This document shows positions 7,878 through 12,911 of a DNA stretch of 64,000 nt, piece after piece (within the stretch, counting starts at the first letter, position 1; every line of letters starts with the position of its first letter). The translations under genes and the position numbers were made by a program. The DNA is from Aquipseudomonas alcaligenes (GTDB lineage Bacteria > Pseudomonadota > Gammaproteobacteria > Pseudomonadales > Pseudomonadaceae): NCBI RefSeq assembly GCF_900156545.1, contig NZ_FTNW01000002.1, positions 310,001 to 374,000 of the forward strand, given 5' to 3'. Below the pieces are notes generated by a model. It ran no database searches. It had not been told where the DNA came from and saw nothing but the letters and a program-made list of their open reading frames with translations.

Positions 7878-9122
7878 ATGCTCAGCTGGGACGAATTCGA
7901 TAAGGAAGATGCCACCGAAGCGGCCGCCAAGCCTGCCGCTGCCGTCGTTGGCGCCGCGCTCGATCAACTGGACAGCGACGCCGCCGGCTCCGTCGAGGAA
8001 GCCCGTGCCGTTTCGGCCGACGACTCCGACGCCGTCGCCCGCGCCAAGAAGGCCCTGAACGACCTGGACATCCAGGAAGGCCTGGACGACCTGGAAGGCG
8101 CCAGCGCCCGCGTGCACGTCGGCGACAAGCAGATGATCAACGCCCGCGCCGACCTCAACCAGCTCGTACCCTTCAAGTACGACTGGGCCTGGCAGAAGTA
8201 TCTGGATGGTTGCGCCAACCACTGGATGCCGCAGGAAGTGAACATGAATGCCGACATCGCTCTGTGGAAGAGCAAGGACGGCCTCTCCGAAGACGAGCGC
8301 CGCATCGTCAAGCGTTCGCTGGGCTTCTTCTCCACCGCCGACAGCCTGGTCGCCAACAACCTGGTGCTGGCCGTGTACCGCCTGATCACCAACCCCGAGT
8401 GCCGCCAGTACATCCTGCGCCAGGCCTTCGAGGAAGCGATCCACACCCACGCCTACCAGTACTGCATTGAGTCGCTGGGCATGGATGAAGGCGAGATCTT
8501 CAACATGTACCACGAGATTCCTTCGGTCGCGAAGAAAGCCTCCTGGGGCCTGAAGTACACCCGCTCGATCTCCGACCCGATGTTCCAGACCGGCACCCCG
8601 GAGACCGACCGCCAGTTCCTGCGCAACCTGATCGCCTACTACTGCGTTCTGGAAGGCATCTTCTTCTACTGCGGCTTCACCCAGATCCTCTCCATGGGCC
8701 GCCGCAACAAGATGACCGGCACCGCCGAGCAGTTCCAGTACATCCTGCGCGACGAGTCCATGCACCTGAACTTCGGCATCGACGTGATCAACCAGATCAA
8801 GATCGAGAACCCGCACCTGTGGGACGCCGCGATGAAGGACGAAGCGACCCAGATGATCCTGCAGGGCACCCAGCTGGAGATCGAATACGCGCGTGACACC
8901 ATGCCGCGCGGCGTGCTGGGCATGAACGCGGCGATGATGGAGGACTACCTGAAGTTCATCGCCAACCGTCGTCTGACCCAGATCGGTCTGAAGGAAGAGT
9001 ATCCGGGCGCGACCAACCCGTTCCCGTGGATGAGCGAGATCATGGACCTGAAGAAGGAGAAGAACTTCTTCGAGACGCGTGTGATCGAGTATCAGACTGG
9101 TGGCGCGTTGAGCTGGGATTGA
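7878..9122 (+). CDS. nrdB: Ribonucleoside-diphosphate reductase class Ia, beta (radical) subunit
   Basis: A 414-residue small subunit carrying the di-iron tyrosyl radical. Expected ligands are present: Asp155 in TADSLVANN, Glu186 and His189 in FEEAIH, radical Tyr193 (HTHAY, spacing as in E. coli H118-Y122), Glu in [10 protein letters not shown], and Glu/His in [10 protein letters not shown]. It has an Ala/Asp-rich N-terminal extension of about 70 residues compared with the E. coli protein, as in other pseudomonads. It lies 399 bp downstream of nrdA and may have its own promoter. An intrinsic terminator follows. Confidence 0.96.
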
Positions 9123-9199
9123 TTCCTGGGTCTAGACCGTTAGGACAAATTACAAGCGCTTTACCTGATTACGGATGTTCGGGGCAGCGAGAGAAACTA

Positions 9200-9228
9200 A
9201 AAGCCCCGCCTTGTGCGGGGTTTCTTTT
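9200..9228 (+). terminator. Rho-independent terminator of nrdB
   Basis: AAAGCCCCGC / GCGGGGTTTCTTTT hairpin with a short TTGT loop and a T-rich tail, 78 bp after the nrdB stop. It marks the left edge of the AT-rich cassette: the next ATG is only 15 bp beyond. Confidence 0.85.
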
Positions 9229-9243
9229 ATAAGAGAAGAAACA

Positions 9244-10263
9244 ATGAAGCTGGACTTCACAGAAGTTACTCAAGGCAACCACTCTTTCTTTCTGACAGTA
9301 ATGCCTGCTGGCCTACTCACAAAAATCGCCTATGCAGCAGTACGCCGACAGGACAATGAAGAGGGCGCTGTTCAACGCATACTTAACCAATCGCGCATCA
9401 TAAGCATCAAAAATTTCGCACTGCAAAACGGCATATTCCCAGCAAGCATTGTACTGAACTGGAACAGCGAGCCAATTGGCATAGAAGACGATCAACTAGA
9501 AATACCCGACGAAGAGCGAATCGCACAAATAATTGATGGCCAGCATCGCGTTGCAGGAATTCGAGCAGCAATCGAAGAAAACCCTGAAATAAGTAATCTT
9601 CAACTGCCCGTTGCAATTTACGCAAACCTAAACACAACCGAATGTGCAAATATTTTCCTATCCATCAACACAGAGCAGAGACCTGTACCTAGAAGTTTGG
9701 TATTTGATCTTTACGGAATTGCCAATGAAGAACTAATTGACCCTTCCGCATATCGTGCCAGAGACATTGCCATGGCTCTAAACATGGAGGATGCTCCATA
9801 CGCAGAACTCATAAAGCTCCCCAACTCACCAAGACAAAAAGGTGGCATCGCCCTATCAACTGCGGTATCAGCAATCAAACCCCTAGTAGAACCAAAAGGC
9901 CTTTTTGAACAAGTTGGCGCCACATCACTCGAAACGCAAACGACCATCTTCAAGAATTTCTTTGAAGCCATTTCCGAAAAATATGGCGATGCTTGGCAGG
10001 ACAGAAGTAATGCCTTTATCTATGCAGCAGGATTTGTGGGCGCCGTTGACTTCCTGAAGCTAGTACTTATTCCATATTGCACAAACAGAAAATCCTTCAA
10101 AAAGGATTTAATCTCCGAAACAATAAAAATTGACCACACAAACCTAATTTTACAAGACGAGGTGAAAGGTTTGGGAGGAAAAGATGCCCCCAAGAGAGTC
10201 TACGAGAGACTTCTTGACTCATTTGAACCTCTCGAAGAAGAGCATGGTGCATTTGAGCTGTAA
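9244..10263 (+). CDS. DGQHR-domain protein (DndB/DpdB-like superfamily)
   Basis: A 339-residue cytosolic protein with the signature IIDGQHRVAGIRAA (DGQHR at 98-102) and the second conserved block FLSINTEQRPVPRSL (138-152), both typical of DGQHR proteins. Characterised relatives include DndB of DNA phosphorothioation systems and ParB-fold proteins of DNA-modification islands. Base composition is AT-rich with A/T-ending codons, unlike the GC-rich flanks. The ATG at 9244 follows a weak AGAGAAG site; its promoter may lie within or beyond the nrdB terminator. It is followed after 5 bp by a second AT-rich gene. No DndCDE, Dpd or methylase genes are present, so the function is open. Confidence 0.8.
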   Translation: MKLDFTEVTQGNHSFFLTVMPAGLLTKIAYAAVRRQDNEEGAVQRILNQSRIISIKNFALQNGIFPASIVLNWNSEPIGIEDDQLEIPDEERIAQIIDGQHRVAGIRAAIEENPEISNLQLPVAIYANLNTTECANIFLSINTEQRPVPRSLVFDLYGIANEELIDPSAYRARDIAMALNMEDAPYAELIKLPNSPRQKGGIALSTAVSAIKPLVEPKGLFEQVGATSLETQTTIFKNFFEAISEKYGDAWQDRSNAFIYAAGFVGAVDFLKLVLIPYCTNRKSFKKDLISETIKIDHTNLILQDEVKGLGGKDAPKRVYERLLDSFEPLEEEHGAFEL

Positions 10264-10268
10264 GAATT

Positions 10269-11021
10269 ATGCATCGACTTAATAACTCAATCTGCATTGA
10301 ACTGGCTGCCTGGGCACCGAATCCTACAACCAGTTTTACATTGACAGCACCAACATCAATCGCACTTGATGCAAATCTAGAGAAAGATTCCACCGACTAT
10401 TTCTATAACGCAGCCTGCACATTCCTAGAGGCATTCAAAAGCCTCTTGAACGGAAGCTTTGCTTGGTCAACAGTCCAACTGTATTACTCTATTTTCTACT
10501 CCACAAGATCAATACTAGCCATAAATAAGATCGCAATCTTTTACGAGAACAGAAAACATTACAGCATCCAAACACTACCCAACCATTCACCTCAAAAAGA
10601 AAGCGGAACCACACACGAAATAGCGTTTAAGATACTAAATCGACAGCTATCCATTCCAGAACTCTGTCAGCCCATTGACGGAATAACACCTTCTGAATGG
10701 CTAAAATCAAAAAGAGAAGAGGCTAACTATAAATTAGCCAAATTTTATGACCCAAACATGCCACCGCATTTCAACTACACCAACGTCGAATCACTTGTAA
10801 AGGCAACCAAAGCTTACATACAAGACATACAAAGCAATTCTCTCACGCTAACACACGACAAAGATCACGCCGCAATCGCCTACCCACTCCTTTGCCTTAA
10901 AAAGAATAAAGACAGGCTCATATCAAACAAAATCTTCCTCTTAGACCCAGACATATCCTACCTCAGTAGCCTACTACCAGAGGAATTTGGTCATATCAAT
11001 AATTTCCTATTCAGCGATTAG
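10269..11021 (+). CDS. HEPN-like all-helical protein of unknown function, paired with DGQHR gene
   Basis: A 250-residue protein, predicted soluble and helical, AT-rich like its partner. The block FAWSTVQLYYSIFYSTRSIL (64-83) resembles the core helix pair of HEPN proteins, and KREEANYKLAKFYDP (148-162) is a second conserved-looking motif. A clear Rx4-6H ribonuclease motif is not seen, so nuclease activity cannot be claimed. It begins 5 bp after the DGQHR stop, so it is almost certainly co-transcribed and possibly coupled. The family assignment is pattern-based only. Confidence 0.5.
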   Translation: MHRLNNSICIELAAWAPNPTTSFTLTAPTSIALDANLEKDSTDYFYNAACTFLEAFKSLLNGSFAWSTVQLYYSIFYSTRSILAINKIAIFYENRKHYSIQTLPNHSPQKESGTTHEIAFKILNRQLSIPELCQPIDGITPSEWLKSKREEANYKLAKFYDPNMPPHFNYTNVESLVKATKAYIQDIQSNSLTLTHDKDHAAIAYPLLCLKKNKDRLISNKIFLLDPDISYLSSLLPEEFGHINNFLFSD

Positions 11022-11045
11022 CGCGAACACCCTATTTGGATATGA

Positions 11046-11066
11046 ATAAAGGGGACAGATTTATTT
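11046..11066 (+). other. AAAGGGGACAGATTTATTT motif at cassette end
   Basis: Directly after the helical gene lies AAAGGGGACAGATTTATTT. From memory, strings like this recur next to IS200-like/RAYT transposases in gammaproteobacteria; no transposase remains here. It could be a transposition scar marking the right edge of the cassette. This is unverified. Confidence 0.25.
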
Positions 11067-11107
11067 TCTCAGCAACTGAGATCAACTAATCATCCCTTTT
11101 CGCCCTC

Positions 11108-11400
11108 ACGGCGAGTCACTTTCTCTTGCGTGCCCAAGAGAAAGTAACCAAAGAGAAAGGCACCCCGACATCCGGGTCGCGCTATGCGCGACTTCCCTCC
11201 CTCCGGTGCCGCTCCGGGGGCCGGCTTACAAGGGCCATCCATGGCCCTTTAAGCCTCTCGCGGCCATCCGGGCCGCTCGTCCCCCTGCGCAACACCTCCA
11301 CTCGGCCTCCTGACGGGGACTCGGGCTCCGAGTTGCCGGGTGGTTTTTCTTTGCGCTGCGCGCATGAATCGTTTCCACGCTGCGCGAGGCATTGGGAGAG
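11108..11400 (-). repeat. Diverged inverted copy of the 0.37-kb repeat unit
   Basis: Read on the minus strand, this stretch follows the same order of blocks as the three units downstream: a hairpin, a palindrome built on GGGCCATGGATGGCCC, a CCGG-rich block and a terminal AAAG-rich hairpin (11111-11145). Sequence identity is clearly lower than among the other units. It opens as CTTTCTCTTGCG/CAAGAGAAAG. No protein gene is supported; open frames across it are side effects of high GC. Confidence 0.55.
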
Positions 11401-11411
11401 CAAGAGAGCGG

Positions 11412-11776
11412 CGTAGCCCGGATGCAATCCGGGAAAGGCCCAACACCCAATTCCCGGATTACATCCGGGCTACCCAAACGGTTTGGCGCCTGCCCCTCTC
11501 CCGCCAGCGGGAGAGGGATTCAGAAAACGAACCTTCAGGCAACACCAAACGCCCCCTTCAGGAGGCCGAACGGAATCGTTGCGGAAGGGAGCGAGCCGCA
11601 TGGATGCGGCGAGAGGCTTAAAGGGCCAGGGACGGCCCTTGTAAGCCGGCCCCTGGAGCGACGATGGAGTGAGGGAACCCCGCCGCAGGCGGGGCCGGAT
11701 GTCGGGGGCAAGCCCTTTTGGTTCCTTTTGGGGCGACTGCCAAAAGGAACCCGCCCAGCAGGGCGGAACCACTGCC
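11412..11776 (+). repeat. Repeat unit 1 (REP head, ~365 bp)
   Basis: Begins with an approximately 60-bp REP-type inverted repeat (arms GTAGCCCGGATGCAATCCGGG and CCCGGATTACATCCGGGCTAC, 11412-11473). A body follows with nested palindromes (GCCGCATGGATGCGGC; AAGGGCCAGGGACGGCCCTT), and the unit ends with a CCTTTTGG/CCAAAAGG hairpin and a GCCCAGCAGGGCGG hairpin. It is the most diverged of the three direct units. Confidence 0.75.
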
Positions 11777-11820
11777 CCAGCCAACACGAAAACGAGCAGC
11801 GGCAAATAAGCAAACCAGCG

Positions 11821-12183
11821 CATAGCCCGGATGCAATCCGGGAAAGGCCCAACACCCAATTCCCGGATTACATCCGGGCTACATAAATGGTTTGGCGCAT
11901 GCCCCTCCCACGCCAGCGGGAGAGAGATTCAGACGACGAACCTTCAGGCAACACCAAACGCCCCTTCAGGAGGGTGAGCGGAATCGTTGCGTAGAGGGGT
12001 GAGCCGCATGGATGCGGCGAAAGGCGTAAAGGGGCATGGACGCCCCTTGTACGCCGACCCTCGGAGCAGCGATGGAGCGAACGAACCCGGAGCGAAGCGC
12101 AGGGCCGGATGGCGGGGCTAGACCTTTTGGTTCCTTTTGGGGCAATGCCAAAAGGAACCCGCCCAGCAGGGCGGAACCACTGC
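11821..12183 (+). repeat. Repeat unit 2 (REP head, ~363 bp)
   Basis: Same architecture as unit 1. From 11885 to about 12118 it is almost identical to unit 3, with only isolated differences seen, implying recent duplication or gene conversion. It contains GGGGCATGGACGCCCC and GCCGCATGGATGCGGC palindromes and the terminal CCAAAAGGAACC hairpin arm. Confidence 0.8.
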
Positions 12184-12205
12184 CGAAGCCAACACGAAAA
12201 GCAGC

Positions 12206-12585
12206 GCGTAGCCCGGATGCAATCCGGGAGAGGCCCAACACCCAATTCCCGGATTACATCCGGGCTACATAAATGGTTTGGCGCCTGCCCCTCCCACGCC
12301 AGCGGGAGAGAGATTCAGACGACGAACCTTCAGGCAACACCAAACGCCCCTTCAGGAGGGTGAGCGGAATCGTTGCGTAGAGGGGTGAGCCGCATGGATG
12401 CGGCGAAAGGCGTAAAGGGGCATGGACGCCCCTTGTACGCCGACCCTCGGAGCGGCGATGGAGCGAACGAACCCGGAGCGAAGCGCAGGGCCGGATGGCG
12501 GGGCAAGCCCTTTTGGTTCCTTTTTGGGGGCCGGCCATCCGGGCGACAGCCAAAAGGAACCCGCCCAGCAGGGCGGAACCACTGC
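12206..12585 (+). repeat. Repeat unit 3 (REP head, ~380 bp)
   Basis: The third direct copy, slightly longer because the terminal hairpin region carries an extra GGCCGGCCATCCGG segment. Its REP head (12206-12268) matches units 1 and 2. The array then stops and sequence becomes AT-rich. Confidence 0.8.
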
Positions 12586-12911
12586 ATCACCCAATGAGGA
12601 AACGAGCAACAGCACATTCCCCCATAAAAAACGAGACTTAACTCACTAAACGCTAGCCACCAAAGCCAGCCGCATGATATGCAATGAATTGTTTTTTGAC
12701 ACCAAAAGTATCAAAGACAAAAAAATGGCGCGCCAAAAAATCAACAGCGCATTACAAAGCACCAGCCGACACCCAAAGCAGGATTTGTAGACGCATCAAA
12801 CATCACATGGGGAATTGAAATTTAATTAAACGACAGACTGACTACCGCACAGCAATACCGGACAGCGACTGTTAACCCTAATTAAATTTTCACAGTAAAA
12901 GTCCTGCAGAT
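12586..12911. other. AT-rich intergenic stretch before a GGDEF gene
   Basis: About 325 bp without a supportable gene. It is noticeably AT-richer than most of the window, with runs such as AAACGACAGACTGACT and TTAATTAAAC, and probably holds the promoter of the downstream cyclase. No confident -35/-10 pair was assigned. Confidence 0.5.

Follow-up and report, generated by a model that had tools for sequence, protein, structure and literature searches.

Among the closest known systems to the genes reported here are DndB and DpdB, which are parts of modification systems (PMC12839542; papers are cited by PubMed Central number). DndB binds DNA and acts as a promoter-binding regulator (PMC4507180), a DndB-like protein binds both ATP and GTP (PMC12704722), and the motifs of DGQHR proteins, among them a QR motif, have been described (PMC4619093). 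A 2013 paper tabulates ParB-type genes that neighbour other HEPN families or are fused to them; it also defines an AF0298/AbiV type of HEPN protein, in which the Arg of the active motif is kept and the His has moved to an insert between helices 2 and 3 (PMC3710099). Here we describe two adjacent genes, A and B, in a stretch of 64,000 nucleotides from Aquipseudomonas alcaligenes (GCF_900156545.1, contig NZ_FTNW01000002.1, positions 310,001 to 374,000); this whole stretch is called the window, and positions are counted within it. Judging from sequence comparisons, we lean towards the view that A and B form a horizontally moving two-gene module, likely an anti-invader system of the abortive-infection type, in which a DGQHR protein would control a HEPN ribonuclease (RNase). 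This reading rests on the two-way linkage of the genes, their co-varying divergence, the conserved DGQHR, QR and FxxxN motifs of A, the invariant His116, Arg149 and Tyr154 of B, and the placement in variable sites shared with defence genes. The module and its principal residues are as follows.

9244-10263, + strand: gene A, a 339-amino-acid DGQHR/PF14072 protein with a predicted ParB-sulfiredoxin fold and C-terminal helical domain
9373-9378, + strand: Q44-R45 (QR motif) of gene A, invariant across the 25 rows of the gene-A alignment (A1)
9535-9549, + strand: DGQHR, residues 98-102 of gene A, invariant across the 25 rows of A1
9655-9669, + strand: FxxxN motif of gene A, F138-N142, with F138 and N142 invariant in A1
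10269-11021, + strand: gene B, a 250-amino-acid protein with a predicted HEPN fold, the predicted RNase effector
10614-10616, + strand: His116 of gene B, between helices 2 and 3, the predicted alternative catalytic His
10713-10730, + strand: R149-E-E-A-N-Y154 of gene B, at the HEPN Rx4-6H position, with Tyr instead of His

Gene A belongs to the DGQHR domain family: it exceeds the cut-offs of both profiles, TIGR03187 (DGQHR; 136.9 bits, cut-off 58.85) and PF14072 (85.2 bits, cut-off 29.1), and carries the QR, DGQHR and FxxxN motifs, the segment FLSINTEQRPVPRSL beginning at F138. A ParB/sulfiredoxin (Srx) fold is predicted from its model. Foldseek found nothing for gene A at E<=0.001, the best match being ParB at 1.1e-3, and a sequence search of the PDB gave it no match. 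As an equivalog of DndB (TIGR03233, 40.7 bits against a cut-off of 328) or of DpdB (NF041060, 54.3 bits against 300) gene A was rejected, and DndC (TIGR03183) has no match in this genome at E<=1e-5; the low scores and the lack of a DndC match together rule out a Dnd or Dpd component.

The single gene-B sequence does not match PF05168 significantly (E 0.15; 12.7 bits, cut-off 22) and has no match at E<=1 in NCBIfam or PADLOC. The PDB sequence search returned weak HEPN chains only, Foldseek alone was weak, and in an alignment to 9xbc no comparable motif lay opposite R149/Y154. With phmmer, gene B alone found three relatives besides itself, and a profile of those four found five more; the query designated A2, searched in viral contigs, found no relative. 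The family was recovered through the downstream neighbours of gene A, and 24 of its 34 members match PF05168 at E<=1 (best 9.5e-5). Because family members match PF05168 and the predicted fold agrees, the assignment to HEPN is supported; by its model, gene B is predicted to be of the AF_0298/AbiV type, with helices at 64-85 and 141-155 flanking His116. The Rx4-6H motif of classical HEPN RNases is not found in gene B, which has R149-x4-Y154, but the pattern of the AF0298/AbiV type is present, with the Arg kept and an alternative His in the helix 2-3 insert. His116, Arg149 and Tyr154 are invariant in 47/47 aligned homologues, and N153 is found in 43 of the 47. We predict from this conservation that His116 and Arg149 form the catalytic centre.

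The missing Rx4-6H His would also suit an exchange of roles, in which A is the effector and acts as has been suggested for DndB, by DNA nicking or nucleoside triphosphate (NTP) hydrolysis, while B serves as a HEPN adaptor or RNA sensor without catalysis; nuclease and NTPase activities have been reported for ParB/Srx proteins (PMC10853773, PMC12839542). We consider such an exchange improbable, as three residues kept without exception down to homologues of about 15% identity are what an active centre would lead one to expect, and as DGQHR, seen with weak fused HEPN or NERD matches or beside membrane proteins (see below), looks like the constant sensor part.

An earlier note on this DNA, made from the sequence alone, had described two co-directional AT-rich genes 5 bp apart between the nrdB terminator and a repeat array, with DGQHR at residues 98-102 and FLSINTEQRPVPRSL in the first and a HEPN-like helix pair in the second. 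Coordinates, composition, hairpin and repeats (given below) bear out the layout, the motifs stand where it placed them in a gene above both profile cut-offs, and the HEPN likeness, though not significant for the single sequence, is upheld by the family matches and the predicted fold.

The linkage of A and B holds when searched from either gene. Scanning the gene-A alignment against the species-genome collection gave 34 loci, in 33 of which a member of the gene-B family lies directly downstream of A, full-length in 29 and cut or damaged in four (L003, L027, L033, L035); the contig of L003 ends at B, and that of L036, the 34th locus, ends inside A. By record title these loci fall in the Pseudomonadota, Cyanobacteria, Acidobacteria, Myxococcota, Chloroflexi and Bacteroidota. 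A number of them are metagenome bins. L006 bears a Bacteroidetes title but hardly differs from the betaproteobacterial L007, and could be a case of misbinning. From the other side, a gene-B profile, used without gene A, found 12 loci in viral contigs, all 12 with DGQHR upstream; three of them had already come up with A, and as L118, L119, L120 and L126 nearly duplicate one another, about nine are distinct. Inspection in three frames showed gene B to be open in L122 and L125. Among 398 genomes of the phylum, the gene-B profile hit four at E<=1e-5, one of them the window's, and each of these hits adjoins DGQHR; the gene-A profile at E<=1e-20 found the same four and one more (G328), in which DGQHR has no recognised partner. 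Pairwise distances of A and B are correlated (Mantel r 0.773 for 28 pairs; none of 5000 permutations as high), a value that cannot separate partnership from joint inheritance. The 28 pairs are the window's, 25 of the 34 genome loci and two viral loci, damaged, end-cut and near-duplicate ones being excluded.

Damaged copies bear on the relation between the two proteins. B is lost and A open in L027, L033 and G449, A is damaged and B open in L028, and L003 and L035 have both genes damaged or cut. The more frequent loss of B alone fits a costly B, in a small sample. The open B beside a damaged A in L028 is at odds with A being a strict inhibitor. The main rival is a toxin-antitoxin or addiction module, with A as antitoxin and autorepressor and B as RNase toxin, that would maintain mobile elements rather than defend against phages. 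The order of the genes, regulator first and toxin second with a 5-bp gap, agrees with such a module, as do the promoter-binding role of DndB (PMC4507180) and, at most suggestively, the loss pattern. For an antitoxin, however, gene A is large and its sequence well conserved, with a mean pairwise identity of 51% against 29% for B. We regard a toxin-antitoxin module as possible but rather unlikely; further evidence on both sides comes from the sites in which the pair is found.

The pair is sporadic in its occurrence. Gene A was found in four of 249 genomes of the genus (the window's included), each time with a HEPN-like partner, and the single gene-B sequence in one of 148 genomes of the family. 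Gene A shares more identity with a Sphingomonas copy (61.8%) than with a P. parafulva copy (52.7%), and this, with the sporadic occurrence, rules out a vertical housekeeping role. The earlier note had staked its proposal on B homologues being linked to DGQHR genes elsewhere and on the pair not being syntenic and vertically fixed; the first is seen in all 12 viral-contig loci and all four hit genomes of the 398, and the second agrees with the few genomes of the genus that carry A and with the absence of the pair from the nrdB site of ten same-genus relatives.

The borders of the module in the window are the following.

7878-9122, + strand: nrdB (ribonucleotide reductase small subunit), an open reading frame (ORF) forming the left border of the cargo site, outside the module
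9201-9223, + strand: intrinsic terminator hairpin of nrdB, nine pairs, six of them G-C, as folded
11393-12607, + strand: GC-rich direct-repeat array, the right border of the module

Both genes are complete and on the same strand, and the pair spans about 1.8 kb. Its GC content is about 0.40-0.45, against 0.60-0.70 for most 500-base segments upstream; GC is 0.59-0.65 in the repeat array downstream and low again (0.47-0.52) in the next stretch, at 12.5-13.5 kb. The array contains a 300-nucleotide unit three times at 11393-12487; start-to-start spacing is about 390-410 bp, and inverted segments are present. From the end of the terminator stem to the ATG of gene A there are 20 nucleotides, and the + strand of 9000-11200 yielded no sigma-70-like match. 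The short gap and the lack of such a match make it likely that A and B are expressed by read-through of the nrdB terminator; given this lack on the + strand, the autoregulation that a toxin-antitoxin module would call for is not evident for the window pair. In L003, L072 and L075 the layout is similar, the first cargo gene starting some tens of bases from the nrdB terminator, and so little promoter room suggests expression by read-through from the housekeeping operon.

Within the genus, the stretch behind the nrdB terminator (9122-11400 in the window; L084-L093) is a variable cargo site. Of 19 genomes, 14 yielded nrdB, the window's and ten others of the genus among these; nrdB of the same-genus relatives is 85-94% identical, and the border gene in L003 matches PF00268. 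In those ten relatives the site holds genes other than the A+B pair, the first of them AT-rich (GC 0.48 or less) in five, and P. mendocina FFL34 has a damaged A+B copy at the same position. We scanned ten cargo proteins from six of the ten relatives, and all six have cargo with PADLOC matches of varying strength: BstA (4.3e-118), the TIR effector PDC-S35 (1.9e-70), PDC-M38A/B (4.2e-280 and 8.3e-156), PDC-S59 (5.7e-30), a weak match to the PDC-M28C/ORC-CDC6-like ATPase (1.3e-7), and HipA. The nrdB site thus looks like a defence hotspot; a literature search for an nrdB defence hotspot found nothing relevant.

Related pairs are found on mobile elements. The filamentous Pseudomonas phage PfAC19, a Pf phage (L059), carries a distant DGQHR/HEPN-like pair annotated as a DGQHR protein and a hypothetical protein. 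Its sister phages carry Retron, Kiwa, ShosTA, Gabija, IetAS and Avs, and PfAC19 itself is listed with 'TA; PfsE' (PMC11878078). The PfAC19 partner, searched in plasmids, gave 19 records (15 Providencia and 4 Burkholderia), and DGQHR gave 47 with equal numbers for these genera (15 and 4), an agreement by genus counts, not accession by accession. The Acinetobacter record MD-2021a, labelled as a phage, is actually a 207-kb assembly contig. A prophage pair (L118) has no near-identical copy in the E. coli genomes of the collection, and its B found no phage record at E<=1e-5, so these searches yielded no ready laboratory carrier. The presence of related pairs on plasmids and prophages, and the 'TA' entry if it should refer to these genes, would suit an addiction module; many copies, however, lie on contigs not known as mobile, and the nrdB and Pf sites carry defence genes. 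Both the nrdB site and the setting on mobile elements speak for defence.

In the anti-invader system that we favour, A would be the sensor or regulator, binding NTP plus DNA or a phage product, a role suggested because its predicted fold is ParB-like, a DndB-like protein binds ATP and GTP, and DndB binds DNA. A would hold B inactive, probably in a complex, with the pair expressed at a low level through the nrdB terminator. Invasion would alter the state of A, so that B is freed or activated and cuts tRNA or mRNA with its His116/Arg149 centre, arresting the cell before the invader multiplies. The DNA surveillance proposed in the earlier note is likewise a putative role.

DGQHR genes also occur in other arrangements. 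A census with TIGR03187 in 299 genomes found 21 places in 16 genomes, whose neighbours were classed by eye from the adjacent ORFs: a HEPN-like partner at three (L102, L106 and L104, the window), a DndC-like gene next at four (L094-L097), a membrane protein upstream at two (L110, L113), while the remaining places are DpdB-like, hold long proteins or are unclear. The HEPN pair is thus a minority class of DGQHR genes. A second arrangement, with a membrane-type protein of 157-260 amino acids upstream of DGQHR, was seen in L040, L041, L043, L044, L055, L056, L061, L062, L067, L110 and L113, L041 and L044 being identical in sequence; nine upstream proteins of distant DGQHR genes, checked with a simple scale, have one to four hydrophobic segments each. 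Fused forms may also exist: plasmid pNL1 (L066, 3302-5611) encodes one polypeptide with DGQHR/DndB and, at its C-terminus, a Swt1-HEPN match that stays below the Pfam cut-off (E 8e-4), and L103 (814-3099) a 761-amino-acid DGQHR protein with an N-terminal NERD-nuclease match (E 0.002, below cut-off). The L103 gene lies, by eye, downstream of a methyltransferase-like ORF.

Several membrane-protein/DGQHR pairs adjoin D12-class or Dam-annotated methyltransferases or BglII-type restriction systems. On pTR3_4 (L065) the order is methyltransferase, NotI-family nuclease, DGQHR and HEPN-like gene, each separated from or overlapping the next by a few bases, and in MD-2021a an N6_N4 methylase lies beside a distant relative. 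The absence of the usual modification enzymes, part of the earlier note's proposal, holds at the window locus, while some distant relatives have DNA methyltransferases as neighbours. These neighbours, and the membership of DndB and DpdB in modification systems (PMC12839542), would agree with a modification-dependent system, in which A reads DNA methylation or another modification made by an enzyme encoded elsewhere. We give this little credence for the window pair, which has no methyltransferase-like ORF directly beside it; no methyltransferase is among the commonest 25 of 91 Pfam families in 113 neighbours of close relatives, and the genome shows no DndC at the threshold given above.

More tentatively, and with less confidence than for the module itself, we suggest that outside Dnd and Dpd the DGQHR protein may be a constant sensor with exchangeable effectors (a downstream His-Arg-Tyr HEPN RNase, an upstream membrane protein, or NERD or Swt1-HEPN as a fused domain), in some cases coupled to a DNA methyltransferase. 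The window pair would then be the leanest RNase form, coupling an NTP-switch ParB fold to RNA cleavage. If this holds, a domain familiar chiefly from DNA-modification islands would act as a general invader sensor commanding different killing parts. The module comprises only two genes in 1.8 kb, is found in phage-like and plasmid records and, by record title, in six phyla, and offers exact residues to mutate, so that the role of the DGQHR protein is directly testable; the nrdB site is a place to seek further defence genes in pseudomonads.

The earlier note took the pair as its best candidate for an undescribed system. PADLOC-DB 2.0.0 (2023) has no system model that covers both genes (A matches only the DndB and DpdB models), our literature search, which covered neither preprints nor most subscription papers, found no paper combining DGQHR and HEPN and no title or opening of an abstract that presents the pair, and the available portions of PMC4619093, PMC10853773, PMC3710099, PMC3506569, PMC12839542, PMC12704722, PMC4507180 and PMC11878078 contain no description of the A+B pair. 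ParB-type gene pairs with other HEPN families are already on record (PMC3710099). With DndB and DpdB, gene A shares the DGQHR/PF14072 domain and, by prediction, the ParB/Srx-type fold, but it falls far below both cut-offs, its genome lacks a DndC match, and its partner is a HEPN-fold protein. GmrSD/BrxU and SspE are DGQQR or ParB/Srx-fold restriction proteins, and GmrSD carries an HNH deoxyribonuclease part, whereas the DGQHR partner in the window is a separate protein of HEPN fold.

Gene B resembles AbiV, the HEPN RNase of a two-component antiphage system (by the titles of PDB 9bj5-9bj7), in its predicted HEPN fold, in keeping the Arg, and in a His of the helix 2-3 insert that takes the place of the usual catalytic one (PMC3710099); it differs in having its own invariant Trp/Tyr/His set and a DGQHR protein as partner. 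Compared with HEPN-T/PF05168 proteins such as AF_0298 (2hsb), it has extra N- and C-terminal helices and a single-sequence score below the cut-off. The MAE_28990-type HEPN, in an operon with a ParB nuclease and a methylase, is alike in that a ParB-fold gene adjoins a HEPN gene (PMC3710099). That type keeps Rx4-6H, whereas gene B lacks the His and has no such Pfam match at E<=1. Pfam, we presume, includes a MAE_28990 model. The Swt1-type HEPN fused to ParB in Saro_3948 (PMC3710099) is matched by the pNL1 DGQHR protein with its weak C-terminal Swt1-HEPN, which we would guess to be Saro_3948 itself; such a fusion differs from A+B in being a single polypeptide with another HEPN family. We file the A+B pair as a variant, not previously described in the sources searched, of the two-gene HEPN conflict modules.
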